Source of the DNA: Halorarius litoreus
GTDB taxonomy: Archaea > Halobacteriota > Halobacteria > Halobacteriales > Haloarculaceae
Direction: 5' to 3'
Assembly (NCBI RefSeq): GCF_024362405.1
Contig: NZ_CP101454.1
Coordinates: 3,534,001-3,598,000, forward strand
DNA: 64,000 nt
Below, one piece after another: positions 8,234 to 22,265 of this stretch. The translations under genes were made by a program, and so were the position numbers. The notes under the pieces are model-generated. The model did not search any database and was not told the origin of the DNA. It was given only the letters and a program-made list of their open reading frames with translations. The stretch's first letter is position 1; every line of letters begins with the position of its first letter.

Positions 8234-10255
8234 ATGACAGGGGACAGACAGTCGCTTCGCCGCCGTGGCTTTCTCAAGGCCACCGGCGCAGCGGCCGCTG
8301 CGAGCGTTGCGGGGTGTCTGGGGCGAACCGAACAATCGGAAGACGAGGCGCGCGCCGGCTCGGCGAGCACGGCGCAAACGAGCGGAGGGACGTTGAACCT
8401 CTTCACCGAGAGCGTAGAGACGTTCGACCCGATCAGGTCGGTGAACACACAGTCCGGTGAAATCGTCCAGCAGCTGTTCGACGGGCTGACGAACTACGAG
8501 AACGCGTCGGCGACGAACATCACGAACCTGCTGGCGAGCTCCATCGAGGTCAGTAGCGACTTCACGACGTACACGATCACGCTGAAGTCGGGGGCGACGT
8601 TCCACGACGGCACGAGCGTCACGGCGAGCGACGTGGCGTACTCGTGGGAGCGACTGGCGCAGTCGCCGAACTCCAGCCGGGACTGGTTCATCCTCGACGT
8701 ACTCGGAATCAGTCACGACAGGGACAGCGACGGGAACTACGTGCCCGGGAGTCTGGCCGTTCGCACGCCGGACGCCTCGACGGTTGAGTTCGACCTGGAC
8801 CAGCCGTTCTACGCGACCGAGGAGATGCTCGCGTACTCGGCGTTCGCCGTCGTGCCCGAGGGCATCGTCGGTGACATCGAGGGCTACTCGGGGCAGATGA
8901 GCTACGACGAGTTCGCGACCGAGAACCCGATCGGTGCGGGACCCTTCCAACTCGACCACTACTACGATGGCGTCGAGATCGTCGCGAACGCCTTCGCGGA
9001 CTACCACGGCTCGGGACCGAACGTCGACCGGCTCTACTGGATGCACGAACTGGGCGCAGACGACCGGTGGGCGGACATCAACGACAAGGACGTCGAGCTG
9101 TTCGACATTCCGACCAAGTACTACGACCCGTCGAAGGTCTCGAACACGACGACGGACTCACAGGGGCGCATCACGGGGGAGTACGGTCCACTCGACAACG
9201 AAGAGACGGTACAGTACCAGCGCGTGACCGAACTGTCGACGTTCTACCTCGGGATGGACGTGCGACACGTCCCGAAAGCGGCTCGCCAGGCCATCGCGTA
9301 CCTGGTCGACCAGGACGACGTCGCGGCGACGACGCACAAGAACCGTGTTCGGCCGGCGTACCACCTCACGATGCCGAACATCTACCCCGGGGGGAGTAGC
9401 GAGTACGATTCACACGCGACCAACAACTATCCGTACAGCGAGCGGACGAGCGACCTGAGTTCGGCCCAGCAGGTGATGGAGGACGCGGGCTACGGCCCGG
9501 ACAACCGAGTCAGCATCACGTTCTCGCACTACACCAGTGAATCGTGGTCCGACTTCGCTACCGAACTGCAGACGAAGGCCACCGACGCCTACATCGACAT
9601 CACGGTCGAGCAGCAGACGTTCAGCGAGTTGCTCGAACAGGGGCGGCAGGGCAACCACGACATCTACACGCTGGGGTGGATCATCGACTATCCCGCGCCG
9701 GAGAACATACTCCAGCTCATCTACCCGCCGAACACGGACACCGCCAACTCCTCGCCGATGTCCTACACGAACTGGGACGACCTGAACACACAGGCGAAGC
9801 AGGACGCGACGGACGCGTACGAGACCATCCTGAACAATCCCGAGCCAACCTCGACCGACGAGAGTAACCGCGACAGCGCGGCCGTCACGATGGAGGAAGC
9901 CAACTGGGATGACGTCATCTTCCTCCCGATGTTCCACGGGGTGAGCGAGCGGTTCTACTACAACAGCGTCGACGTGCCGATCCACGGTCCGATGGGGCCG
10001 ACCCGGCAGAAGCTCAACGGCGTCACCATCAACACGGACATCGGGCCGGAGGGCTCGATGTCGCCGACCGACCCGGACGGCGACGGGCTGTACGAGGACG
10101 TGGACGGCGACGGGGAACGCGACGCGGACGACGCCCGACTGTTGTTCCAGGAGACGGACCAGTTCAGCGACCCGGCGAAGTACGACTTCAACGGTAACGG
10201 CGAGGTCAACGTCGCCGACGTGCAGGCGCTGAAGAACGAGAACGAGAACCAGTAG
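8234..10255 (+). CDS. dockerin-bearing Tat lipoprotein, family 5 extracellular solute-binding protein
   Basis: A 673-residue secreted lipoprotein. The Tat signal is RRRGFLKATG (residues 9-18) and the lipobox VAGC puts the lipid on Cys28. Residues about 50-590 match the oligopeptide/dipeptide solute-binding fold (SBP_bac_5): GGTLNLF, then EIVQQLFDGL, LKSGATFHDGTSVTASDV and YTLGWIIDYPAPEN. The last 65 residues are a type I dockerin with two calcium loops, DVDGDGERDADDA near 623 and DFNGNGEVNVAD near 652. A dockerin on a solute-binding protein is unusual. No ABC permease or ATPase is beside it. It is the first gene of a tight three-gene operon with two cohesin proteins. The ligand is unknown, probably a peptide or oligosaccharide. 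Confidence 0.9.
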   Translation: MTGDRQSLRRRGFLKATGAAAAASVAGCLGRTEQSEDEARAGSASTAQTSGGTLNLFTESVETFDPIRSVNTQSGEIVQQLFDGLTNYENASATNITNLLASSIEVSSDFTTYTITLKSGATFHDGTSVTASDVAYSWERLAQSPNSSRDWFILDVLGISHDRDSDGNYVPGSLAVRTPDASTVEFDLDQPFYATEEMLAYSAFAVVPEGIVGDIEGYSGQMSYDEFATENPIGAGPFQLDHYYDGVEIVANAFADYHGSGPNVDRLYWMHELGADDRWADINDKDVELFDIPTKYYDPSKVSNTTTDSQGRITGEYGPLDNEETVQYQRVTELSTFYLGMDVRHVPKAARQAIAYLVDQDDVAATTHKNRVRPAYHLTMPNIYPGGSSEYDSHATNNYPYSERTSDLSSAQQVMEDAGYGPDNRVSITFSHYTSESWSDFATELQTKATDAYIDITVEQQTFSELLEQGRQGNHDIYTLGWIIDYPAPENILQLIYPPNTDTANSSPMSYTNWDDLNTQAKQDATDAYETILNNPEPTSTDESNRDSAAVTMEEANWDDVIFLPMFHGVSERFYYNSVDVPIHGPMGPTRQKLNGVTINTDIGPEGSMSPTDPDGDGLYEDVDGDGERDADDARLLFQETDQFSDPAKYDFNGNGEVNVADVQALKNENENQ

Positions 10256-10267
10256 AGGGTACGAGGA

Positions 10268-13200
10268 ATGACGAACACATCCACGAACACATCCCTCGCC
10301 CTCGCGGCGACCGCGATGGCCGCCGTGCTGGTCTTCAGTGCGGCGTTCGCTGGGGTCACGCTCGGGACCGTCGGCGCGGCTTCGACGAGTACGCCGGCTA
10401 CGGGGCCGCTGAACGTCACGTACGCCGACTCCGTCGCGACGGCCGTCAGCGCCGACGGCGAGAGCCGGCAACCGAAAATCGTTTTTAACCAGTCACGGAC
10501 CATCGACGCCGCGGCAGGCGACGAGTTCGTCGTCGAGAACGTCGACACCGGCACGTCGGTCAGCGTCGTCCCGTCCGAGCAACTCAACGTCTCGGCCGGC
10601 GACGCCCTCGAACTCGAGGTCGTCGAAGGAGACGGCACCCAGTCGACTGACCCGACCATCCAGCTGGAACACAACGACACGGCGACGACGTACAACGCCA
10701 CGGTCAGCGGGGACTTCGCGAATACGTTCCAGGCGCCGTACTCGAATCTGACCGTCACGTTCGTCGACGACGGAGCGGCCGTCGACTCGACCGAGCGTGC
10801 AGCCATCCACCCGGTCGACTACGACGCGGCGTTCCAGCAGAACTCCACATCCGGCACCGTCTTGCTCTCGTTCGCGCGCGACGGGTTGCCCACGAACTCA
10901 CAGGTGGACTACACCCTGTTCGGCGAGAACGTCGACGTCCCGCTCTCGTACAACGCGACGAGCGACCGATTCGAGGGGACGCTCGACGTCTCCTCGCTCA
11001 ACGAATCGACGTACCCCGGTGGCGCGTTCTTCACCCATCCGGACGACGGCTTCTACTTCGGCGCGAACGGTGACCTCGTCGTCAACCGGAGCGGGAGTTC
11101 CGATGGCACCTCGTCCGGCGGCGGAGGGGGCGGCACTGGACCCGTCGACATCAGCCACTCGACCACCATCTTCGGGAAAGGCGATGCGAACGCAAGGGGT
11201 CGCCGCCCAGGCGTGACGTTCAACCAGTCGATCACACTCGATTCAGCCGACGACTTGGTCGTCACGAACGTCGAGTCTGGAGCACAGACACTGGTCGAAC
11301 CAACCGGTCCCATCAACGTCACCACTGACGACGACGTTGCGCTGAACGTCGTTCTCGGCGACGGTTCTGCCGACTCGACGCCAGAGCTCCAGTTACACAC
11401 GCCAGAGAACAACACCTACTTCACGGCGAACGTCAGCGGCAACGTCTCGGGAACGTTCCGTGGTCCGTACTCGAATCTCACCATCGCGTATGTCGACAAC
11501 GGCACGACGGTCGACACGACCGGTGAGTCAATACATCCCTACAACTACACGAAAGATCACCGGCAGAACTCGACGAACGGGACGGTTCGAGTCTCGCTTG
11601 CACGCGATGGCCTCCCCAAGAGTACCACCGTCGACTACTCGGTGTATCAGGAGAACGTGAGCGGTCAACTGACCTACAACGCTACGGAAGACGCGTTCGT
11701 CGGAACTGTCGATACCTCATCACTGCCGGACGGGACGTACTCCGTCTATCCGACGTTCCGGACGACTAGCGGCGAGTCGTACTTCTTCACGAGTAACGAG
11801 CTCGTTGTCAACGGGAGTTCTGACGGAGGGAGCACAGCGTCCGGTCCACTGTCGGTCACGTTCGACTCGTCGGTGTCGACGACGTCCTCGGGTGACGGTA
11901 CCCCCACGAGTAGTACCCCGTACGTCGTGTTCAACCAATCCCGGACGCTCGACGGGAGTGGCGGCGACTATCTGATACTGACGAACACGAACACCGGCGC
12001 GAACCTGACCGTCACGCCGACCGAACCGGTCAGCATCGACGCGATGTCCGAAGTCGGACTGGACATCTACAACGGGAGCGGCGCCATCAGGTCGCCGAGA
12101 CTCACCGTCAACAACGGAACGTGGAGCTACTACGACGTGGAGGTCTCGGGCAACGTCTCGGGGACCGTCACTGCCCCGTACGCGAACTACACCGTGACGT
12201 TCGTCAACGACACCACCGAGGTCACGACGACGCCCGAGGACATCATCCACCCCATCGGATACCTCGGGGAGGTCAGGCAGACGGGGACCACTGGCACCAT
12301 CGAGGTATCCGTCCCTCGCGACGGCCTCCCCCGGAATTCATCCGTGCGCGTTACTGTCCATGGTACGGCCGCCGACTCCTCACTCTCGTACAATTCGAGT
12401 GCGGACACGTTCGACGGTACCCTGGACGTCTCGGAGCTCTCTGACGGGACCTACCGAGCAGGAGTGTTGTTCGACACTGCAGAGGACGGCTTCTACTTCG
12501 CCTTCAGCAGCGACCTTCTCGTCGGTCAGGAGCCGTCGGCCACCTTCGCTGACCAGACCACCAACGGCACGTATGCGACCATCGACGCCGCGTACCTGCC
12601 GAATGGCGGGTTCCTGACCGTCCGCGACGACTCGCTGTCGAGCGGGGCAGTGTTCGACTCCGTACTCGGCGTCTCGCCGTACCTCTCGGCGGGCAACCAC
12701 AGCGACGTCACCGTCCGACTCGGTGACCCCATCGCGTACAACCAGACGCTCATCGCGATGCCGCACACGGACTCGAACGGCAACCAGCAGTTCGACTTCG
12801 TCGACTCCGAGGGTGCGGAAGACGGTCCGTACGTCGACACCGACGGCAACGTCATCACTGACAGCGCGAACGCGACCGTCGACCTGACGGGGGAGCCCGG
12901 CGACGCCTCGGTGTATCTGGAGCCGGCAAACCGAACGGTCGACGTCGGTGAGAACGTCACCTACCTCGTTCGCGTCGCGAACCCCGGCGCTGGAGTCGGT
13001 GCGCTGAACATCTCGGTCGCCCCGTCGACGACCGACGTCGAGATCGTCGACGCAGGGCTCCCACCCGGAACCGAGCTCACCGAGGTCGCGTATCGCTCTG
13101 ACGGCAGCGTGCAGCTGCGCGCGGCCGGCATGGACACCGGCACCACCGACCCCGTCGTCGCTGCCATCACGGTACAGGGCGCGCAGGCTGGCAACGGCAC

Positions 13201-14638
13201 GCTCGTCCCGACCGTCGACACGCTCGCCGACGAGCGCGGGCTGGAGTACAACGTCACGGCTGCAGCCAGCAGCAACTACACCGTCACGCGCCCGAGCCTG
13301 ACGCTCGACCTCGTCCCGTCGAACGCGGAGACGCGCGTCGGGGAACGGAACGCGTACACGCTCGTCGCGCGGAACGTCGACGACGGCGTCGGCGCGATGA
13401 ACGTGACGGTGACGCTCGACGACGCCAGCGTGGTGGACATCGTCGACAACGACGTCGCCGGGAGCCCCGACCTCCGGAGTTCAGTCCACGAGACCGCGAA
13501 CGGGACGGAGACGCTCACCATCCGCGCGGCTGGGATGGACACACCGGACACCGGAGACATGCCCATCGCGGCGGTCTACCTCGAAGGCGCCCAGCAGGGG
13601 AACGCGACGCTCACCCTCGAAGGGAACGTCGTCGCCACCGAGGCCGGCACGGAGTACGTCGTCTCGAACACGCCGACCGCACCGGTCGACGTGCCACAGC
13701 CGAAGGTCGACGTGTTCGTTGCCCCCGAGAACAACGACGTGCAGGCCGGTGAGACGTTCACGGTCGACATCGTCTCGGACACGAACACGCTCGGCGTCTA
13801 CGGCGAGGAGTTCACCCTCGCGTTCAACGAGACGTTGCTCAACGCGACCGAGGTGACCGAAGGGCCGTTCCTGAGCAAGGACGGTGCCGAGACGTTCGTC
13901 GCCTCCGAAGACATCGACAACACGAACGGCACCGTCGACGTGGGCATCAGCCGGAAGAACACCAGCACGACCGTCTCAGGGACTGGTGTCGTCGCATCGG
14001 TGACGTTCCGCGTCGACGAGAACGCGACTCGAGGGGTCGACTCACCGCTGGCGCTCACCACGGTGAAGGTCTCCGACGAGAACGCGAACGCGGTTCCCCA
14101 CCGCCGGTTCAACGGCACGGCCTACGTGCCGGTGAATCTCCCACCGGAGCTCAACGCGACGCTCGTCTCGACCGTCGTGAACGAGGGACAGCCGGTCAAG
14201 GTTCGTGCCGAGGCGACCGACTCTGACGGGAACGTCACGACCGTCTCGCTGCACGACCCGAACGGTACCGAACTCGATTCGGAGAGCTGTGAGTCCGTCT
14301 GTCTCCACACGCTCTCGGCGACGCCGAACTTCCACACGTGGAACGGCAGCGGCTACGGCACGACGACGGTCTACACCGTCGCCGTCGACGACGACGGCGC
14401 GGACGCCACCCGCGAATTGACGTTCAAGGTGTACACCGCTGGCGACGCCAACGGTGACGGCGTCGTCGACATCTTCGACGCGTCGACCATCGGCACCGCC
14501 TGGAACGCACAGCGCGGAGACGCCGCGTACTCGGATGCGGCCGACCAGAACAACGACGGCGTCGTCGACATCTTCGACGCCAGCATCCTCGGGACGAACT
14601 GGAACGACGAAGCGACGACCAACAGCACGAGCAGCTAA
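10268..14638 (+). CDS. secreted scaffold with three novel repeats, DUF7282, cohesin-like modules and dockerin
   Basis: A 1,456-residue protein starting 12 bases after the solute-binding gene, with a purine-rich GAGGA just before the ATG. A signal peptide fills about residues 1-38. Three related repeats of about 230 residues follow (about 45-275, 290-520, 530-755), each with VFNQS(R/I)T-D near the start, an IHP(V/Y/I) motif and a (DG)LP motif. About 757-870 is DUF7282 (LPNGGFLTVRDDS, LIAMPH). Two cohesin-like beta modules with an AAGMDT motif (about 880-1140) precede a clearer cohesin (about 1144-1289: VAPENNDVQAGETFTVDI, VASVTFRVD, VKVSDENANAVP). An Ig-like domain and a C-terminal dockerin (DANGDGVVDIFD, DQNNDGVVDIFD) end it. 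There is no membrane anchor. Many Asn-X-Ser/Thr sites suggest N-glycosylation. The repeat function is unknown. Confidence 0.88.
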   Translation: MTNTSTNTSLALAATAMAAVLVFSAAFAGVTLGTVGAASTSTPATGPLNVTYADSVATAVSADGESRQPKIVFNQSRTIDAAAGDEFVVENVDTGTSVSVVPSEQLNVSAGDALELEVVEGDGTQSTDPTIQLEHNDTATTYNATVSGDFANTFQAPYSNLTVTFVDDGAAVDSTERAAIHPVDYDAAFQQNSTSGTVLLSFARDGLPTNSQVDYTLFGENVDVPLSYNATSDRFEGTLDVSSLNESTYPGGAFFTHPDDGFYFGANGDLVVNRSGSSDGTSSGGGGGGTGPVDISHSTTIFGKGDANARGRRPGVTFNQSITLDSADDLVVTNVESGAQTLVEPTGPINVTTDDDVALNVVLGDGSADSTPELQLHTPENNTYFTANVSGNVSGTFRGPYSNLTIAYVDNGTTVDTTGESIHPYNYTKDHRQNSTNGTVRVSLARDGLPKSTTVDYSVYQENVSGQLTYNATEDAFVGTVDTSSLPDGTYSVYPTFRTTSGESYFFTSNELVVNGSSDGGSTASGPLSVTFDSSVSTTSSGDGTPTSSTPYVVFNQSRTLDGSGGDYLILTNTNTGANLTVTPTEPVSIDAMSEVGLDIYNGSGAIRSPRLTVNNGTWSYYDVEVSGNVSGTVTAPYANYTVTFVNDTTEVTTTPEDIIHPIGYLGEVRQTGTTGTIEVSVPRDGLPRNSSVRVTVHGTAADSSLSYNSSADTFDGTLDVSELSDGTYRAGVLFDTAEDGFYFAFSSDLLVGQEPSATFADQTTNGTYATIDAAYLPNGGFLTVRDDSLSSGAVFDSVLGVSPYLSAGNHSDVTVRLGDPIAYNQTLIAMPHTDSNGNQQFDFVDSEGAEDGPYVDTDGNVITDSANATVDLTGEPGDASVYLEPANRTVDVGENVTYLVRVANPGAGVGALNISVAPSTTDVEIVDAGLPPGTELTEVAYRSDGSVQLRAAGMDTGTTDPVVAAITVQGAQAGNGTLVPTVDTLADERGLEYNVTAAASSNYTVTRPSLTLDLVPSNAETRVGERNAYTLVARNVDDGVGAMNVTVTLDDASVVDIVDNDVAGSPDLRSSVHETANGTETLTIRAAGMDTPDTGDMPIAAVYLEGAQQGNATLTLEGNVVATEAGTEYVVSNTPTAPVDVPQPKVDVFVAPENNDVQAGETFTVDIVSDTNTLGVYGEEFTLAFNETLLNATEVTEGPFLSKDGAETFVASEDIDNTNGTVDVGISRKNTSTTVSGTGVVASVTFRVDENATRGVDSPLALTTVKVSDENANAVPHRRFNGTAYVPVNLPPELNATLVSTVVNEGQPVKVRAEATDSDGNVTTVSLHDPNGTELDSESCESVCLHTLSATPNFHTWNGSGYGTTTVYTVAVDDDGADATRELTFKVYTAGDANGDGVVDIFDASTIGTAWNAQRGDAAYSDAADQNNDGVVDIFDASILGTNWNDEATTNSTSS

Positions 14639-14641
14639 CCA

Positions 14642-17600
14642 ATGAGAACACGCGCACTCACACTCACGGCGCTCGTCGTGCTCGCCGCGTTCGTCCCCTT
14701 CGTCGGGGGCACAGCGGTCGCGTCGAGCCACGAGGGCGAGCTATCGCTCAACGAAAGCAACGTCACCCTGAGTCAGGGTGAATCAGTCTGGATCGCGGTG
14801 CAGTACGACACGGCTCCCGGGTCCGCTGGGCCACCGATAAACGCCATCCAGTTCCAGCTCCGGTTCAACAGCACGGTGCTGAACGCGTCGAACCCCCAAC
14901 CGGGACCGTATCTGACGCAGGACGGGGTTGGGTCGCTAAAACCGGGAGAGGGAACAGACAACTCGACCGGTGTCGTGGACTACGGCGAGGCCCGAAAAGA
15001 CGATAGCGGCGTGACGGGCGCCGGCGACGTGGCGTACGTGAAGTTCACCGCCACGGAGAACACGAGCAAGCCGCTCGGCGCGCTCACGTCGCTCACCTTC
15101 GAGACGGTGAAGGTCAGCGACCCGAACCAGAACTCCGTCCCGACGCAAGCAACCGGCGGCACCATCGACACGGTCGACACGGTCCCCCCGACCGCGAACG
15201 CCACGGTCCAGAAGACGACGGTGAACGTCTCCGAGGACGTCGCGTTCCACGCGGCCGACTCGACAGACAACCACCGCATCGACTCGTACGAGTGGGACTT
15301 CGACGGTGACGGCACGGCCGACGCCACCGGCTCGCAAGTGTCCACCAGCTTCGACTCGACCGGGACGAAGACCGTCGCGGTGACGGTCACGGACGCCGAC
15401 GGCAACACCGACACCGACACCGTCGATGTCCAGGTCGTCGACGAGGTCGACCCCACTGCAGCAGTCACGGCGACGACGACGACGGTCGAACTCGGTGACC
15501 CCGTGACACTCGACGGGAGCGATTCCACGGACAACGATGCCGTCGCGTCCTACGAGTGGGACTTCACCGACGACGGGACGGTCGACGAGACCACCACCTC
15601 GCCGTCGGTCGACTACACGTACGGCGACCGGGGGACGTTCACCGCGAACCTCACCGTCGTCGACCCGAGCGGCAACACCGACACTGCGACCGTGCAGGTG
15701 ACCGTCGAGGACACCACCACACCGAGCGTGTCGGTGGCGCCGAACACGACCGAACAGACGCTCGGCGCCCCCGTCGAGTTCGACGCCTCGGGAACGACCG
15801 ACAACGGCGCAGTCGCCTCCTACGCCTGGGACTTCGACGAGGACGGCCAGATCGAACAGAACACCATCGACCCGGTGGTCACTCACACCTTCGACACGCG
15901 CGGGACGTACAACGTGTCCGTCACGGCGACCGACGAGGCCGGCAACAGCGGTACGGGCACGGCCGCGACCGTCAGCATCGTCGACGGAACCGCCCCGATC
16001 GCGGTGGTCGAGGGCCCCGAGGGCGCGCTCAACGTCTCCGAAGCGGGGACGTTCGACGCCTCGAACTCGACTGACAACACCGAGATCGACTCCTACGAGT
16101 GGACGTTCGGTGACGGGTCGAGCGCGACCGGCGTGACCGTCGACCACGCCTACGACGCGAAGGGCAACTACACGGTGACGCTGACCGTCACCGACGTCGA
16201 CGGCAACACCGACACCGCTTCGACGAGCATCGAGGTCGGCGACGGTGTCCCGCCGAGCGCGAGCGCGACCGTCAACCGCACCAGCGCAGGGCTGAACGTC
16301 ACGACGGTCTCGTTCGACGCGAGCGGGTCGTCGGACAACGACGCCATCGCCTCCTACGAGTGGGACTTCGACGGCGACGGTGCCGTCGAGACGACGACGA
16401 CCGCGGCGACGACGACCTACGTCTACCCCGCAACGGGCACGTTCACGCCCGAGGTGACGGTCGTCGACGCAAGCGGGAACACCGACACCGCGACCACGGC
16501 CGACGTGACCGTCGCGGACACCACCGCACCGGACGCGAGCGCGACCGTCAACGCGACGGACGTGTTCCTGACGGACACCGTCGGCTTCGACGCCTCGCAG
16601 TCGACCGACAACGGTCAGATAGTCGCCTACCGCTGGGACGTGGACGGCGACGGTACGGTCGACGCGACGACCTCCTCGCCGACGTACGTCCACTCGTACG
16701 ACGCGCGTGGGTCGTACACCCCGACCGTGAGGGTCGTCGACGCGGCGAACAACAGCGCCACGGCGACGATGGCGACGGTCAACGTCACTGACGGCACGCC
16801 ACCGGAGGCGGCGGTCGCTACCCCGTCGCGGACGGTCGACGTGAACGTGACGACGACGTTCGACGCCTCACCCAGCACGGATAACACACAGATCGACTCG
16901 TACGCCTGGGCGTTCGGTGACGGGTCGAGCGCGACCGGCGTGACCTTCGACCACGCCTACGACGCGAAGGGCAACTACACGGTGACGCTGACCGTCACTG
17001 ACGTCGACGGCAACACGAACACGACGACGGCCTCGGTCGCAGTCGTCGACCGCGTGGCGCCGACGGCGACGGCGACGGTGAACCGGACGAGCGCGGAGCT
17101 CAACCGGACGACCGTCGCGTTCGACGCCTCTGGCAGCTCTGACAACGACGCCGTCGATTCCTACGAGTGGGACTTCGACGGCGACGACACGGTCGACGAG
17201 ACTACCACCTCACCCACGACGACGCACGTCTTCGCGGCGACGGGGACGTTCACGCCCGAGGTGACGGTCGTCGACGCCAGCGGCAACACCGACACCGCGA
17301 CCACGAGCGACGTGACGGTGAGCGACACCATCGCGCCGACGCCAGCCATCACTGGCCCGCAGCCAGCCGTCGTCAACATCACGTCGACGTTCGACGCCTC
17401 GAACACGACGGACAACGGTCCCATCGCGAGCTACGAGTGGGACTTCGACGGCGACGGCACGACGAACGCGACGACGGCCGACCCGACCGCCGACACCGTC
17501 TACACGGTGCCGGACCGGACGCTGACGGTCACCGTGACCGTCACCGACGAGGCCGGCAACACGGCGACGACGGAGATGACCGTCAACACGACGCGCGCAC

Positions 17601-20600
17601 CCGGCGTCTCGGTCGTCGACCCCACCGCGGGCGAGCACGTCAACGTGAGCGCGCCGACGGTCGCCTACGAGATCGCGAACCGCGACGCCGACGACGTTGA
17701 CCACGCGGAGTACCGCGTCGATGGCGGGACGTGGCAGACCGCCTCTGATAGTACGAGCGGGACGAACGGCACGGTGACGCTCGCGTCCCTCGCGGACGGC
17801 GAACACACCGTCGAGTTCCGCCTCGTGAACGGGAGCGGTGTGACGCTCCCCTACGCGTCGTCCACGACTGCACAGACGTTCACCGTCGACACGGTCGCGC
17901 CGGGCATCCAGCTCGTCGGCCCGCAGCAGGGCCGGGTCGCGTACGGGACGAACCTCTCGTTCGCGTACGACGACGCCAGCGCCGTGACCGCGACGTTCCA
18001 GCGCAACACCACGGGCGACGCGACGGCGAACGTCGACGACACCGTGGTGGCGACCGACGGCTGGCCGGAGGGGCCGACCGCGGTCACCGTCACCGCGACC
18101 GACGAGGCCGGCAACACCGCCAACGAGACGTTCACGTTCGACTTCGTCTCGGCGCCCGATGTCGATTCGGTGGCGCCTGCGAACGGGACGCTCCTGAACG
18201 ACACGACGCCCACCGTCGAGGTGACGTACAGCGACGACGACGTGGCTGGCGACAGCGGCATCGACCCCGCGTCGGTGACGCTCTCGGCGAACGGCCAGTC
18301 CGTCTCGCTGGCAGACGCGACGGTCACGCCCGACGGGCTGACCGTCACGCTCCCCGACCGCGCGGTCTCGGACACGAACACGCAGACGCTCGTCGCCGAG
18401 GTGGCGGACAACGCCTCGCACACGACGACTGCCTCGTGGACGTTCACCGTCGACAACCGCGCACCGCGTATCGCCGCGAGCGCGAACCACAGCGACCGTG
18501 TGAGCACGAACTACCCGGTCGCCGTGAGCGTCGACGTTACCGAGACGCACCCCGGAACGAGCACGGCCATCGTGCGCAACGCCTCGACCGGCACCCAGGT
18601 CGCGACGCTCGCCGCACCCCCGGCTGACGGGAGCGGCGTCGTGACGTGGAACGCGACCGACGACTCGGGCGTGGCCGTGGCGAGCGGCACGTACGAGGTC
18701 GTCGTCACGAGCGAGGACGCGGTGAACAACACCGCGACGAAGACGGTGAACGTCACCGTCGACACCGTCGCACCGACCGTCTCCATCACGGAGGTCACCG
18801 GCCCGAACGTCGTGGCCGGCACCGTCGTGACGAACGGGACGGTGACGTTCGCCGCGGACGCGGGCGGAACCCCCGGTGACGCGGAGAACGTGACGTTCGT
18901 CCTCTCCGCGTGGGACCAGAACTACGAACTCGCGGTGCCCGCGAGCCTCGACAACGGCTCGTGGACCGCGACCGCCGACATCTCGGGTCAGGTGCCCGAC
19001 GACGGCGCGTTCGCCGTCAGCGCAGTCGCGACCGACCCGGCGAAGAACACGAACACCGCCTCGTCCGGGACGCTAGTCGAACTCGACCGGCGTGACCCCG
19101 CGCTCGGCGCGACCGTCTCGCGGGTCAACACCTCGACGGCACAGGTGAACGTCTCCGTCACGAACGGCGACACCCTCGACACCGACTCGCTGGTCGTCCA
19201 GTTGCGGACGCCGAACGGCTCGACGACGAAGCTCGACGTCCAGCAGGTCGCACAGGGCCGCTACACGGCCACCTTCGCGGTGAACCAGAGCGGCCTCTAC
19301 AGCGGCATCGCGACCGCGACTGACGAGGCCGGCAACCGCGGCACCGACTCGTTCGGGACGGTGTTGGAGACGGTCTCGACGACGAACAAGACGGTCACCG
19401 TCTACGTCGAGAGCTCCGGCTCGTTCATCGAGTTCAACACGAGCGCCGAGGTGAACGACACGTTCGTCACCATCACCGACTCGTCGACGCCGCTCGAGCC
19501 GCTCGCCGCGGACCTCCGTGGCGCGCGGTTCATCGACGGCGAGCTCGGTGACGCGCTCGAACAGAACCTGACGAACGCGACCATCGGCCTCCCGGTCAAC
19601 GAGTCGGCGCTGCCGACCGGGGTCTCACCCAGCGACGTGGCGATCCGCTACTACAACCCGGACACCGACTCGTGGGAGGAGCAGCCGACGCGCATCGCCG
19701 AGGTAACCCTCGAAAACGGCGTCACCGACACGTACTACCTGACGACGGTCACCCACTTCTCGACGTACGGGGCGACCGTGCAGGACACCGCGGCACCGAC
19801 GCTCTCGTCGACGTCGCCGGCGTCCGGCACGGAGTACCCGGCGACGACCGACGAGGTGACCGCGCGGTTCGAGTACAGCGACGACCTCACCGGCGTGGAC
19901 GCGAGCGCGGTCACCGTCTCGTTCGACGGGACGGACGTGACCGACGCCGCGGGCGCACAGGTGACGAGCGAGTACGCCACCTACACGGCGACCGGGCTCC
20001 AGCCCGGTACGAGCCACACGGTGGCGGTGACGGTGGTCGACGAGGCAGGGAACAGCGACACGTTCACCACCGACTACACGGTCACTACCGACGAGACGCC
20101 GCCGACCGTCTCGCTCGACCCGAGCGACGGCGCGACCGTCAGCACGTCGAGCCCGACGCTGTCGGCGACCTACTCCGACGCCGCGTCGTCCATCGACACC
20201 GCCTCCGTCGAGGTGAAAGTCGACGGCCAGACGGTGACGGGCGCGGCATCCGTCTCCGCCAGCGGCGTCAGCTACGACGCGAGCGGGCTCTCGGACGGCA
20301 GCCACACGTTCACGGTCTCGGTCGCCGACGCGGTCGGCCAGACGACGACGAAGACCGCGTCGTTCACCGTCCAGACGGCGAGCGGCTCGACCGGCACCAG
20401 TTCGCCGAGCACCGGCACGAGCAGTCCGAGTTCCGGTAGCTCGGGTGGGTCGGCGCCGGTCGCTCCCTCGGGGACCCCGAACGTCACGCAGGTCGACGCC
20501 GGCGTCAGCACGACCGAGGTCGAGGTCGGCGACACACTGACTGTCACCGCGACGTTCGAGAACACCGGCACGGCCGACGCGGAGCAGACCGTCGAACTGT

Positions 20601-20965
20601 TCGTCGACGGCGAGCCTACCGGCGAGACCCGGACCGTCCGGGTGCCAGAGAACGGCTCCGCGACCGCGACGTTCGGCCGATCGTTCGACGCCGCGGGCAC
20701 CTACACCATCGCGGTGGGGAACCTGACCGCCGGCACCGTGACCGTCGTCGAGCCGACCACGGCGACGCCCACGGTGACGCCCGACGACAGCACGCCGACG
20801 ACACCGGCGACACCGGCATCGACGCCGTCCGAAACCATCACGGCAACGCCGACGCGGACGCCGACCGCGACCGGTACGCCGACGGCCTCCGATGGGCCGG
20901 GCTTCACCGCGCTGCTCGCGCTGGTGGGGCTGCTGGCTGCCGGGCTGCTCGCACGACGCGACTGA
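14642..20965 (+). CDS. giant cohesin / PKD / CARDB surface protein with PGF-CTERM anchor
   Basis: A 2,107-residue protein starting 3 bases after the preceding stop. A signal peptide (about 1-27) is followed by a cohesin module (about 30-178: VTLSQGESVWIAVQYDT, AIQFQLRFNSTVLNAS, VAYVKFTATEN, VKVSDPNQNSVPTQ). Nine PKD domains run to about residue 983, each with the DSYEWDFDGDG-type motif. Ig-like domains follow to about 1560. A PGF-pre-PGF-like region with AIRYYNPDTDSWEEQPTR ends at the THFSTYGA motif. Further Ig-like domains, a CARDB domain (about 1950-2040), a Thr/Pro linker and a PGF-CTERM (GPGF, hydrophobic helix, ARRD) end it. Archaeosortase A substrates carry this signal, which joins them to the envelope. 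It is the likely anchor for dockerin partners. Confidence 0.9.
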   Translation: MRTRALTLTALVVLAAFVPFVGGTAVASSHEGELSLNESNVTLSQGESVWIAVQYDTAPGSAGPPINAIQFQLRFNSTVLNASNPQPGPYLTQDGVGSLKPGEGTDNSTGVVDYGEARKDDSGVTGAGDVAYVKFTATENTSKPLGALTSLTFETVKVSDPNQNSVPTQATGGTIDTVDTVPPTANATVQKTTVNVSEDVAFHAADSTDNHRIDSYEWDFDGDGTADATGSQVSTSFDSTGTKTVAVTVTDADGNTDTDTVDVQVVDEVDPTAAVTATTTTVELGDPVTLDGSDSTDNDAVASYEWDFTDDGTVDETTTSPSVDYTYGDRGTFTANLTVVDPSGNTDTATVQVTVEDTTTPSVSVAPNTTEQTLGAPVEFDASGTTDNGAVASYAWDFDEDGQIEQNTIDPVVTHTFDTRGTYNVSVTATDEAGNSGTGTAATVSIVDGTAPIAVVEGPEGALNVSEAGTFDASNSTDNTEIDSYEWTFGDGSSATGVTVDHAYDAKGNYTVTLTVTDVDGNTDTASTSIEVGDGVPPSASATVNRTSAGLNVTTVSFDASGSSDNDAIASYEWDFDGDGAVETTTTAATTTYVYPATGTFTPEVTVVDASGNTDTATTADVTVADTTAPDASATVNATDVFLTDTVGFDASQSTDNGQIVAYRWDVDGDGTVDATTSSPTYVHSYDARGSYTPTVRVVDAANNSATATMATVNVTDGTPPEAAVATPSRTVDVNVTTTFDASPSTDNTQIDSYAWAFGDGSSATGVTFDHAYDAKGNYTVTLTVTDVDGNTNTTTASVAVVDRVAPTATATVNRTSAELNRTTVAFDASGSSDNDAVDSYEWDFDGDDTVDETTTSPTTTHVFAATGTFTPEVTVVDASGNTDTATTSDVTVSDTIAPTPAITGPQPAVVNITSTFDASNTTDNGPIASYEWDFDGDGTTNATTADPTADTVYTVPDRTLTVTVTVTDEAGNTATTEMTVNTTRAPGVSVVDPTAGEHVNVSAPTVAYEIANRDADDVDHAEYRVDGGTWQTASDSTSGTNGTVTLASLADGEHTVEFRLVNGSGVTLPYASSTTAQTFTVDTVAPGIQLVGPQQGRVAYGTNLSFAYDDASAVTATFQRNTTGDATANVDDTVVATDGWPEGPTAVTVTATDEAGNTANETFTFDFVSAPDVDSVAPANGTLLNDTTPTVEVTYSDDDVAGDSGIDPASVTLSANGQSVSLADATVTPDGLTVTLPDRAVSDTNTQTLVAEVADNASHTTTASWTFTVDNRAPRIAASANHSDRVSTNYPVAVSVDVTETHPGTSTAIVRNASTGTQVATLAAPPADGSGVVTWNATDDSGVAVASGTYEVVVTSEDAVNNTATKTVNVTVDTVAPTVSITEVTGPNVVAGTVVTNGTVTFAADAGGTPGDAENVTFVLSAWDQNYELAVPASLDNGSWTATADISGQVPDDGAFAVSAVATDPAKNTNTASSGTLVELDRRDPALGATVSRVNTSTAQVNVSVTNGDTLDTDSLVVQLRTPNGSTTKLDVQQVAQGRYTATFAVNQSGLYSGIATATDEAGNRGTDSFGTVLETVSTTNKTVTVYVESSGSFIEFNTSAEVNDTFVTITDSSTPLEPLAADLRGARFIDGELGDALEQNLTNATIGLPVNESALPTGVSPSDVAIRYYNPDTDSWEEQPTRIAEVTLENGVTDTYYLTTVTHFSTYGATVQDTAAPTLSSTSPASGTEYPATTDEVTARFEYSDDLTGVDASAVTVSFDGTDVTDAAGAQVTSEYATYTATGLQPGTSHTVAVTVVDEAGNSDTFTTDYTVTTDETPPTVSLDPSDGATVSTSSPTLSATYSDAASSIDTASVEVKVDGQTVTGAASVSASGVSYDASGLSDGSHTFTVSVADAVGQTTTKTASFTVQTASGSTGTSSPSTGTSSPSSGSSGGSAPVAPSGTPNVTQVDAGVSTTEVEVGDTLTVTATFENTGTADAEQTVELFVDGEPTGETRTVRVPENGSATATFGRSFDAAGTYTIAVGNLTAGTVTVVEPTTATPTVTPDDSTPTTPATPASTPSETITATPTRTPTATGTPTASDGPGFTALLALVGLLAAGLLARRD
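16111..16209 (+). repeat. near-identical PKD segment, copy 1
   Basis: The 99 bases match bases 16918-17016 with two differences, an in-frame offset of 807 bases (269 codons). They encode the core of PKD domain 4 (GSSATGVTVDHAYDAKGNYT). Neighbouring PKD domains 5 and 8 are also more alike than average, so a block of at least two modules was duplicated or homogenised. Confidence 0.8.
16918..17016 (+). repeat. near-identical PKD segment, copy 2
   Basis: Second copy of the 99-base segment at 16111, encoding the core of PKD domain 7 (GSSATGVTFDHAYDAKGNYT). Confidence 0.8.
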
Positions 20966-20987
20966 ACCCGAGAAACCGAGCGATTCC

Positions 20988-20992
20988 TTTTT
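20988..20992 (+). terminator. T-run after the cohesin-dockerin operon
   Basis: ATTCCTTTTT ends 27 bases after the stop of the giant cohesin gene. Archaeal transcription often ends at such T-runs. The convergent cohesin gene stops at 21015, only 49 bases from this gene's stop. Confidence 0.4.
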
Positions 20993-21014
20993 CGACGCTG
21001 CCTGCCGAGAGTCC

Positions 21015-22265
21015 TCAGTCTCGACGACCCAGTCCCACGCCGAGTCCGACCAGCGCGAGGAGTGCGGCGACGCCACCGAAGCCAGGGCCGAAGCCGTCGG
21101 TCGGTGAGCCGACGGTTCCCGGGGCGACGGGCGTCGGCGTCGCGGTCGTCTCCCCGCTTCCAGACCCGCTCACCGTTCGCGTCTCGGTCGCGTTGGGTTC
21201 GTACGCGACGGCGTACGTCGAGAGGCCGGGTGACCGCGCGGTGAACACGTAGGCGTCAGCAGTTGTATCGACCCGACTGGTCGGGAGTTTGCCCCACGTC
21301 CCGTTCTGTAGTCGGTAGAGCGCGACGCCCATGGGGGCAACACCGGCGTCGTCGAGCCGCGACGTCGCGACGGTGAACTGGAGCTCCGCGCTACCGTACT
21401 CGTCTGCAGAGAGCGACGGGTGCGTGACGTTGAACGCCGCCAGCATCGGGTCGTCGGGGCCGGAGAACCCCGCGGCGTCGGGAGAGACGGCCGTCACCGT
21501 CGCGTCGAACTCGCTTGCGGTCACGTCACGGACCGTGAGCCCGGTGAGTTGGACGCCGACCGTCTCGCCGGCTTCCGTGGGCGGCAGGGAAGCGACGACC
21601 GTCCCCTCGCCCGTCGCGGTGAACGTCACCGACCCCGGCGACGTCTTGGTCGCCGTCACGCGTGCAGCGTCGTCGGGGGCCGAAGGCGTGGGGCCGACGG
21701 GCGTCGCGGTCGGCTCGGCGCCGGGTGTAGAGTCGCTGGCCTCGCCGTCAGTACCACCAGTTGCGCCAGTAGCGCCCTCGATGTCGATGGTAGTACCCGC
21801 CGTCTCGACCGGAACCGACGAGCCGTTCGAAGCCGCCACTTTCACGTCCGAGAGCCCGAGCGTGACCGACCCGGACGCGTCAGCGGGCAGGGTCACGTCG
21901 ACGGTCGCGAGTGTTCCCGAGCCGGTCACGCCCGTCTGGGTCTCGCGGCGACTCTCGCCGAAGCTGACGCGCCCGTCGTCGACCTGGTTCGCGACGACGA
22001 ACGTGCTCGCGTTCTGCGAGAGGAAGTTTCCGGGGGTGGCGTGCGTCGCCGACCCGGCAGTCGGGAAGGAGAGGCCGAACTGCGCGGCGTAGACGGGCGT
22101 GTCCGTCGCGATGTCGACGGTCACGGTCACGGTCTCGCCCGGCGACGCGGTCTCAGGAGCGTCGACGCTCACCGTCGCGGGGACGGCGGTCGCGGTCGCG
22201 ACGCCGAGACAGAGGCCGAGGAGGAGTGCGACGACGAGGACGCGACGATAGCTCACGCCGACCAC
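21015..22265 (-). CDS. cohesin-domain PGF-CTERM surface protein with PGF-pre-PGF domain
   Basis: A 416-residue protein convergent with the cohesin-dockerin operon. A signal peptide (about 1-27) precedes a cohesin-like module (about 28-165: VSVDAPETASPGETVTVTVDI, YAAQFGLSF, TLATVDVTLPADASG, LSDVKVAASNGSSVPV). A Ser/Thr/Pro linker leads to a PGF-pre-PGF domain (about 210-365: LQFTVATSRLDD, ALYRLQNGTWGKLPTS, SPGLSTYAVAYE). A PGF-CTERM tail (GFGPGFGG, hydrophobic helix, GRRD) ends it, so it should be processed by archaeosortase and fixed to the S-layer. The start is uncertain: GTG at 22265, or GTG at 22256 directly before SYRRVLVVALLL. It could be a second docking site for the dockerin proteins next door. 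Confidence 0.88.
   Translation of the reverse strand: MVGVSYRRVLVVALLLGLCLGVATATAVPATVSVDAPETASPGETVTVTVDIATDTPVYAAQFGLSFPTAGSATHATPGNFLSQNASTFVVANQVDDGRVSFGESRRETQTGVTGSGTLATVDVTLPADASGSVTLGLSDVKVAASNGSSVPVETAGTTIDIEGATGATGGTDGEASDSTPGAEPTATPVGPTPSAPDDAARVTATKTSPGSVTFTATGEGTVVASLPPTEAGETVGVQLTGLTVRDVTASEFDATVTAVSPDAAGFSGPDDPMLAAFNVTHPSLSADEYGSAELQFTVATSRLDDAGVAPMGVALYRLQNGTWGKLPTSRVDTTADAYVFTARSPGLSTYAVAYEPNATETRTVSGSGSGETTATPTPVAPGTVGSPTDGFGPGFGGVAALLALVGLGVGLGRRD

Follow-up and report, generated by a model that had tools for sequence, protein, structure and literature searches.

The window, a 64,000-nucleotide stretch of the Halorarius litoreus genome (NZ_CP101454.1, positions 3,534,001 to 3,598,000), contains a cluster of four genes, P0001 to P0004, that encode cohesin and dockerin modules (Table 1). 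We confirmed the gene calls of the initial annotation, including all four sets of coordinates, the spacers of 12 and 3 bases that separate P0001, P0002 and P0003, and the convergent orientation of P0004. A Pfam profile scan of the whole 4.17 Mb genome found four cohesins and three dockerins. Three of these cohesins and two of the dockerins lie within the four-gene locus, a clustering that excludes chance as its origin. The remaining cohesin and dockerin form a second pair (C1:268.8-269.5 kb). This second locus (L008:347-8050, C1:262.3-270.0 kb) encodes a large PQQ/PKD/CARDB/TED-like protein, a 410-aa dockerin protein and a cohesin-CARDB-like protein with a PGF-like C-terminus, and it is present in a congener as well (L247).

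Table 1. Genes and modules of the cohesin-dockerin locus, in positions of the window.
Feature	Position	Strand	Description
P0001	8234..10255	+	Tat lipoprotein-type family-5 solute-binding protein (SBP; oligopeptide-binding-like), C-terminal dockerin
P0001 dockerin (GVGA class)	10091..10237	+	PF00404; class scores 60.1 (GVGA) vs 26.9 bits (classical-partner)
P0002	10268..14638	+	Adaptor: three N-terminal repeats, DUF7282, GVGA1, GVGA2, cohesin, Ig-like, dockerin
P0002 GVGA1, residues 879-1007	12902..13288	+	GVGA HMM 73 bits; divergent cohesin-fold module (predicted)
P0002 GVGA2, residues 1010-1143	13295..13696	+	GVGA HMM 129 bits; module itself among the HMM training sequences
P0002 classical cohesin, residues 1154-1282	13727..14113	+	PF00963 37.5-44.8 bits
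P0002 dockerin (third class), GDANGDGVVDIFDA...DQNNDGVVDIFDA	14438..14590	+	PF00404 29-36 bits
P0003	14642..20965	+	N-terminal cohesin, PKD/Big array, PGF-CTERM
P0003 classical cohesin	14771..15166	+	PF00963 32.7-32.8 bits
P0004	21015..22265	-	Convergent cohesin protein; PGF-pre-PGF domain, PGF-like C-terminus
P0004 classical cohesin	21804..22175	-	PF00963 38.6 bits

We searched the four proteins with Pfam profiles, using cutoffs of 22.9 bits for Dockerin_1 (PF00404) and 24.1 bits for Cohesin (PF00963). As initially proposed, P0001 and P0002 carry C-terminal type I dockerins. The P0002 dockerin (residues 1391-1441) scored 29.0-36.0 bits. The P0001 dockerin (residues 620-668) scored 22.2 bits in the full-length protein, which is below the cutoff, 29.8 bits when the C-terminus was scanned alone, and 26.9 bits in the genome scan. 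Each dockerin contains two calcium-loop repeats as read from its sequence (DVDGDGERDADD/DFNGNGEVNVAD in P0001 and DANGDGVVDIFD/DQNNDGVVDIFD in P0002). The three proposed cohesin proteins each exceeded the cohesin cutoff, P0002 at residues 1154-1282 (37.5-44.8 bits), P0004 at residues 31-153 (35-38.6 bits), and P0003 at residues 44-175 (32.7 bits). The last score comes from the N-terminus scanned alone, as this module was missed by the full-length scan, where the PKD repeats dominate (PKD_4, E=1.4e-104). P0002 bears both module types, in agreement with its description as an adaptor. Archaeoglobus 2xdh was a profile match of the window's classical cohesins; P0004 itself gave no match in the PDB. 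Two PGF-CTERM ends had been described. P0003 has one (34.0 versus a cutoff of 24.5), but P0004 scored below the cutoff (18.7) and was instead recognized as PGF-pre-PGF (41.1 versus 28; PGF_pre_PGF E=1.7e-10). Pfam called no glycoside hydrolase or CBM over cutoff in P0001-P0004, which upholds the non-cellulosomal reading; the features that define a cellulosome, namely glycoside hydrolases with dockerins and a scaffoldin with a CBM, are absent from the four proteins.

P0001 is a full-length SBP (SBP_bac_5, E=5.1e-54). Its N-terminus reads as a lipobox-like VAGC downstream of an RRxFL-type Tat motif, and this Tat-lipoprotein signal supports the earlier view of P0001 as a lipid-anchored protein. 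Among solved structures, those closest to it belong to proteins that bind murein peptide and oligopeptides, which makes a peptide the likely ligand. No permease adjoins P0001, and hence no complete Opp/Dpp importer operon is found there. A dockerin-free paralogue, 50% identical to P0001 and present in both the host and congener genomes, heads an operon that reads, by layout and sequence rather than by Pfam, as two permeases and two ATPases (L109). In a search of 392 genomes, the other P0001 homologues among the matches listed end near P0001 residue 600-620, before the dockerin, so the dockerin tail appears to be a genus-level addition among these matches. At the loci examined here, an SBP as dockerin payload is so far confined to this genus. 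We rejected one candidate for a second dockerin-tagged SBP, in genome G111, whose match extends to residue 648 and whose tail is no dockerin.

The module list of the initial annotation was incomplete: P0002 contains two further modules with a predicted cohesin fold, which together span residues 879-1143 and share the motifs GVGAYxxTV and MDTxDTGSVTVATVTVEG. This region gave no PF00963 match, with neither copy, GVGA1 or GVGA2, over the cutoff. Three of 28 GVGA family members matched PF00963 at E<=1 (best 1.1e-4), NCBIfam cohesin models did not match GVGA, and the GVGA profile had no match among PDB sequences. Using larger alignments, hhalign related GVGA to all collected haloarchaeal cohesins with 98% probability. 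This value was 96.5% without the intermediate cohesins of the second locus and 96% without the cohesins of the window and its congener, and controls gave at most 5% (dockerin, PKD, DUF7282, CARDB in a thin alignment of three sequences, and reversed cohesins). Small alignments of the window's own three classical cohesins gave no significant match to GVGA (1.7% and 15%, the latter with a six-sequence profile); it is other haloarchaeal cohesins that connect GVGA to the cohesin family. In the congener, the cohesin of the second locus was recognized by both models, at 64.5 bits for cohesin and 30.7 bits for GVGA.

We modeled GVGA modules from Halomicroarcula rubra (L167) and Halorussus marinus (L169) with AF2, with a pLDDT of about 97 in one of them. 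Foldseek searches of the PDB returned only cohesins among the top 36 and top 39 matches of the two models, including 2xdh. The modeled proteins are relatives (identity is 31-36% between the modeled GVGA and the two copies in P0002), and it is these relatives that argue for a cohesin fold in GVGA modules. Both models included a dockerin together with GVGA, as a read-through chain of the two for L167 and as a natural GVGA-dockerin protein for L169. The GVGA folds were good, and the dockerin was not confidently placed (pTM 0.64 and 0.68).

GVGA is present in 148 of the 392 genomes of the order, compared with 143 for the Pfam cohesin and 170 for dockerin. Among 55 fetched loci picked by GVGA alone (the independent ones are slightly fewer, since L176-L215 overlaps a little with L161-L175 from the same genomes), a dockerin lies no more than 3 kb away in 48, counted from six-frame matches. 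A typical locus encodes a payload protein with a dockerin, serial GVGA-GVGA-dockerin adaptors, and an end gene that carries between one and three GVGA modules, as in Halomicroarcula rubra (L167) and Haloarcula pellucida (L170); a two-gene form occurs elsewhere. Payloads beside GVGA are mixed, mainly PKD, malectin and Ig-like proteins, along with a small number of subtilases, and with PQQ propellers and 5'-nucleotidase C-termini. Beside classical cohesins, subtilases (peptidase S8) make up 23 of 28 dockerin proteins. At five loci (L192, L197, L202, L209 and L210), the dockerin of a very long protein lies close to its N-terminus, at about residue 95; in several cases the gene is divergent to a GVGA gene, which makes the layout an inverted one. 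Two proteins of about 590 aa (L213:2176-3939 and L233:5912-7684) carry a GVGA-class dockerin with no GVGA or cohesin gene nearby.

We built one dockerin HMM from 55 dockerins beside GVGA and another from 33 beside classical cohesins, so that each class is defined by the neighboring gene rather than by binding. Dockerin sequence predicted the local cohesin class in 88 of 88 cases with loci held out, and again in 88 of 88 with whole taxonomic families held out. Both classes occur within one genome, for example G281 (L124 and L181). The P0001 dockerin scored 60.1 bits with the GVGA class versus 26.9 bits with the classical-partner class, and GVGA remained ahead when its own family was left out (59.5 versus 25.7 bits). 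The earlier proposal that the SBP docks to surface cohesins thus retains its dockerin and cohesin parts but loses the classical cohesins as partner: by this sequence rule, the likely partners of P0001 are the two GVGA modules of P0002. The P0002 dockerin fits neither class (20.7 bits GVGA versus 23.0 bits classical-partner), and elimination leaves the locus's classical cohesins, three in number, as its candidate partners.

Conservation of gene order had been suggested as a check, and a congener (G392) keeps all four genes in the order SBP, adaptor, cohesin-PKD protein and convergent cohesin protein. Contamination is estimated at 6-7% for both genomes, but an artifact is made less likely by the recurrence of the locus, in synteny, in both assemblies. 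The congener SBP is 64% identical across all 673 residues, dockerin included, and the C-terminal modules of the adaptor follow the same order as in P0002. Dockerin identity between the two species is 78% for P0001 and 86% for P0002, where the dockerin is the best-conserved module. Identity is 62% for the SBP domain, 34% for the adaptor N-terminus, 46-65% for the other adaptor modules, and 84% for a flanking MutS-like gene. The P0002 N-terminus (window 10268-12530) consists of three repeats of about 250 residues and the congener has about one, so that repeat number varies between species. P0002 is not conserved as a whole protein: the 392 genomes contain no full-length homologue, and only DUF7282, GVGA and the N-terminal repeats recur.

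Based on these observations, we consider it probable, with real room for doubt, that the locus encodes a non-cellulosomal, envelope-anchored, two-tier cohesin-dockerin assembly that presents a peptide-type SBP, with binding predicted. In the first tier, the two GVGA modules of P0002 would receive the GVGA-class dockerin of lipid-anchored P0001, allowing up to two SBPs per adaptor. In the second, the P0002 dockerin would plug into the classical cohesin of P0003, P0004 or another P0002, the last of which would extend the chain. SBPs would thereby be concentrated in an array at the plane of the S-layer and membrane, capturing peptides that may be handed to an Opp importer encoded elsewhere. Within this scheme we infer the physical binding, the choice of second-tier partner, the ligand and the importer. 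Several observations count against it: (i) the locus lacks a permease; (ii) P0001 has its own lipid anchor and hence does not need docking to stay on the cell; (iii) the modeled dockerin was not confidently placed on GVGA; (iv) the second tier is assigned by elimination; (v) GVGA matches the window's classical cohesins weakly; and (vi) the folded GVGA modules are those of relatives.

The first of these points would be expected if the locus encoded a structural or adhesive S-layer appendage, in which docking joins PKD/Ig-rich proteins and the SBP is a receptor or building block with no role in uptake. P0002 and P0003 consist mostly of repeat and Ig domains, and at other loci GVGA-class dockerins are attached mostly to PKD, malectin and Ig-like proteins. 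We nonetheless regard an appendage as unlikely, if worth serious weight, because the close SBP paralogue heads a complete Opp-like operon and the SBP domain of P0001 is full length and conserved. We give still less credence to the wiring of the initial annotation, in which the P0001 dockerin would bind the classical cohesins of P0002, P0003 and P0004 directly and GVGA modules would be spacers. All of these modules share one locus, both P0001 dockerin repeats look calcium-competent, and this dockerin does score with the classical-partner class, but the GVGA class scores 33 bits better, GVGA-class dockerins adjoin GVGA in 55 of 55 cases, and GVGA is predicted to have a cohesin fold. Very improbable is a set of evolutionary leftovers that have lost binding, as the title "enigmatic vestige" might suggest for archaeal cohesin-dockerin sequences (Bayer 1999, as cited in PMC9012536), because the dockerin is better conserved than any other module in P0002 and, in P0001, better conserved than the SBP, dockerin class follows partner class across families, and archaeal dockerin-cohesin pairs are reported to bind in literature cited in the relevant section of PMC9012536.

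More broadly, the balance of evidence tips slightly toward a haloarchaeal docking code of at least two, and here probably three, cohesin/dockerin classes, in which GVGA builds serial scaffolds and P0002 acts as a bilingual adaptor. P0002 carries two cohesin classes plus a dockerin of a third kind, and GVGA, unrecognized by Pfam and NCBIfam, is present in more than a third of the searched genomes. The window would represent this code applied to nutrient capture. A cohesin family missed by standard libraries, together with a dockerin sequence rule, supplies candidate partners for haloarchaeal dockerins. The rule allows a two-gene binding assay, and some host organisms are cultivated.

The function of non-cellulosomal archaeal cohesins and dockerins is an open question in the literature. 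Our search of the open-access literature turned up no description of a cohesin-dockerin system in haloarchaea; in two recent papers on haloarchaea, the dockerin is regarded as a substrate-binding part and cohesin goes unmentioned (PMC10963439, PMC13260240). The layout had been thought undescribed, which does not hold for two of its elements: the relevant section of PMC9012536 describes, in ANME archaea, dockerin-tagged OppA/NikA/TroA SBPs and proteins with a dockerin and up to five cohesins, for which attachment to the outer layer is proposed (Chadwick et al. 2022). P0001, with SBP_bac_5 and PF00404, fits the ANME-type definition of a dockerin-tagged SBP. ANME are another lineage, however, and operon wiring and module classes do not figure in that section. 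The adaptor of the present locus combines cohesins of two classes, and the locus has PGF-type anchors.

The two-tier layout also resembles cellulosomal ScaA/ScaB-type scaffoldins, in which the adaptor's dockerin differs in specificity from its cohesins, and which include anchoring cohesins. Unlike these, the four proteins have an SBP payload, archaeal PGF-type C-termini, and no glycoside hydrolase or CBM. The Archaeoglobus fulgidus non-cellulosomal cohesin (PDB 2xdh) is archaeal and among the top Foldseek matches of the GVGA models (TMt 0.73), but identity is 16-18%. We know of no adaptor or SBP in the A. fulgidus cohesin system. Within haloarchaea, a widely conserved gene pair (L119-L125, L227-L232) encodes first a subtilase (S8)-cohesin-dockerin protein of about 1,100 aa and then a small cohesin protein whose C-terminus is hydrophobic. 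These pairs share the two-tier layout, with an anchored cohesin and a C-terminal dockerin, but differ in their peptidase S8 payload (23 of 28), classical cohesin and classical-partner dockerin class. Amid subtilase-cohesin-dockerin genes (L117/L118 of genome G264; L115/L116 of G087), we observed a secreted protein of 2,087 aa with 14 cohesins (L117:7162-13425, minus strand). This haloarchaeal protein is a large protease scaffoldin, and its cohesin count far exceeds the five described in ANME.
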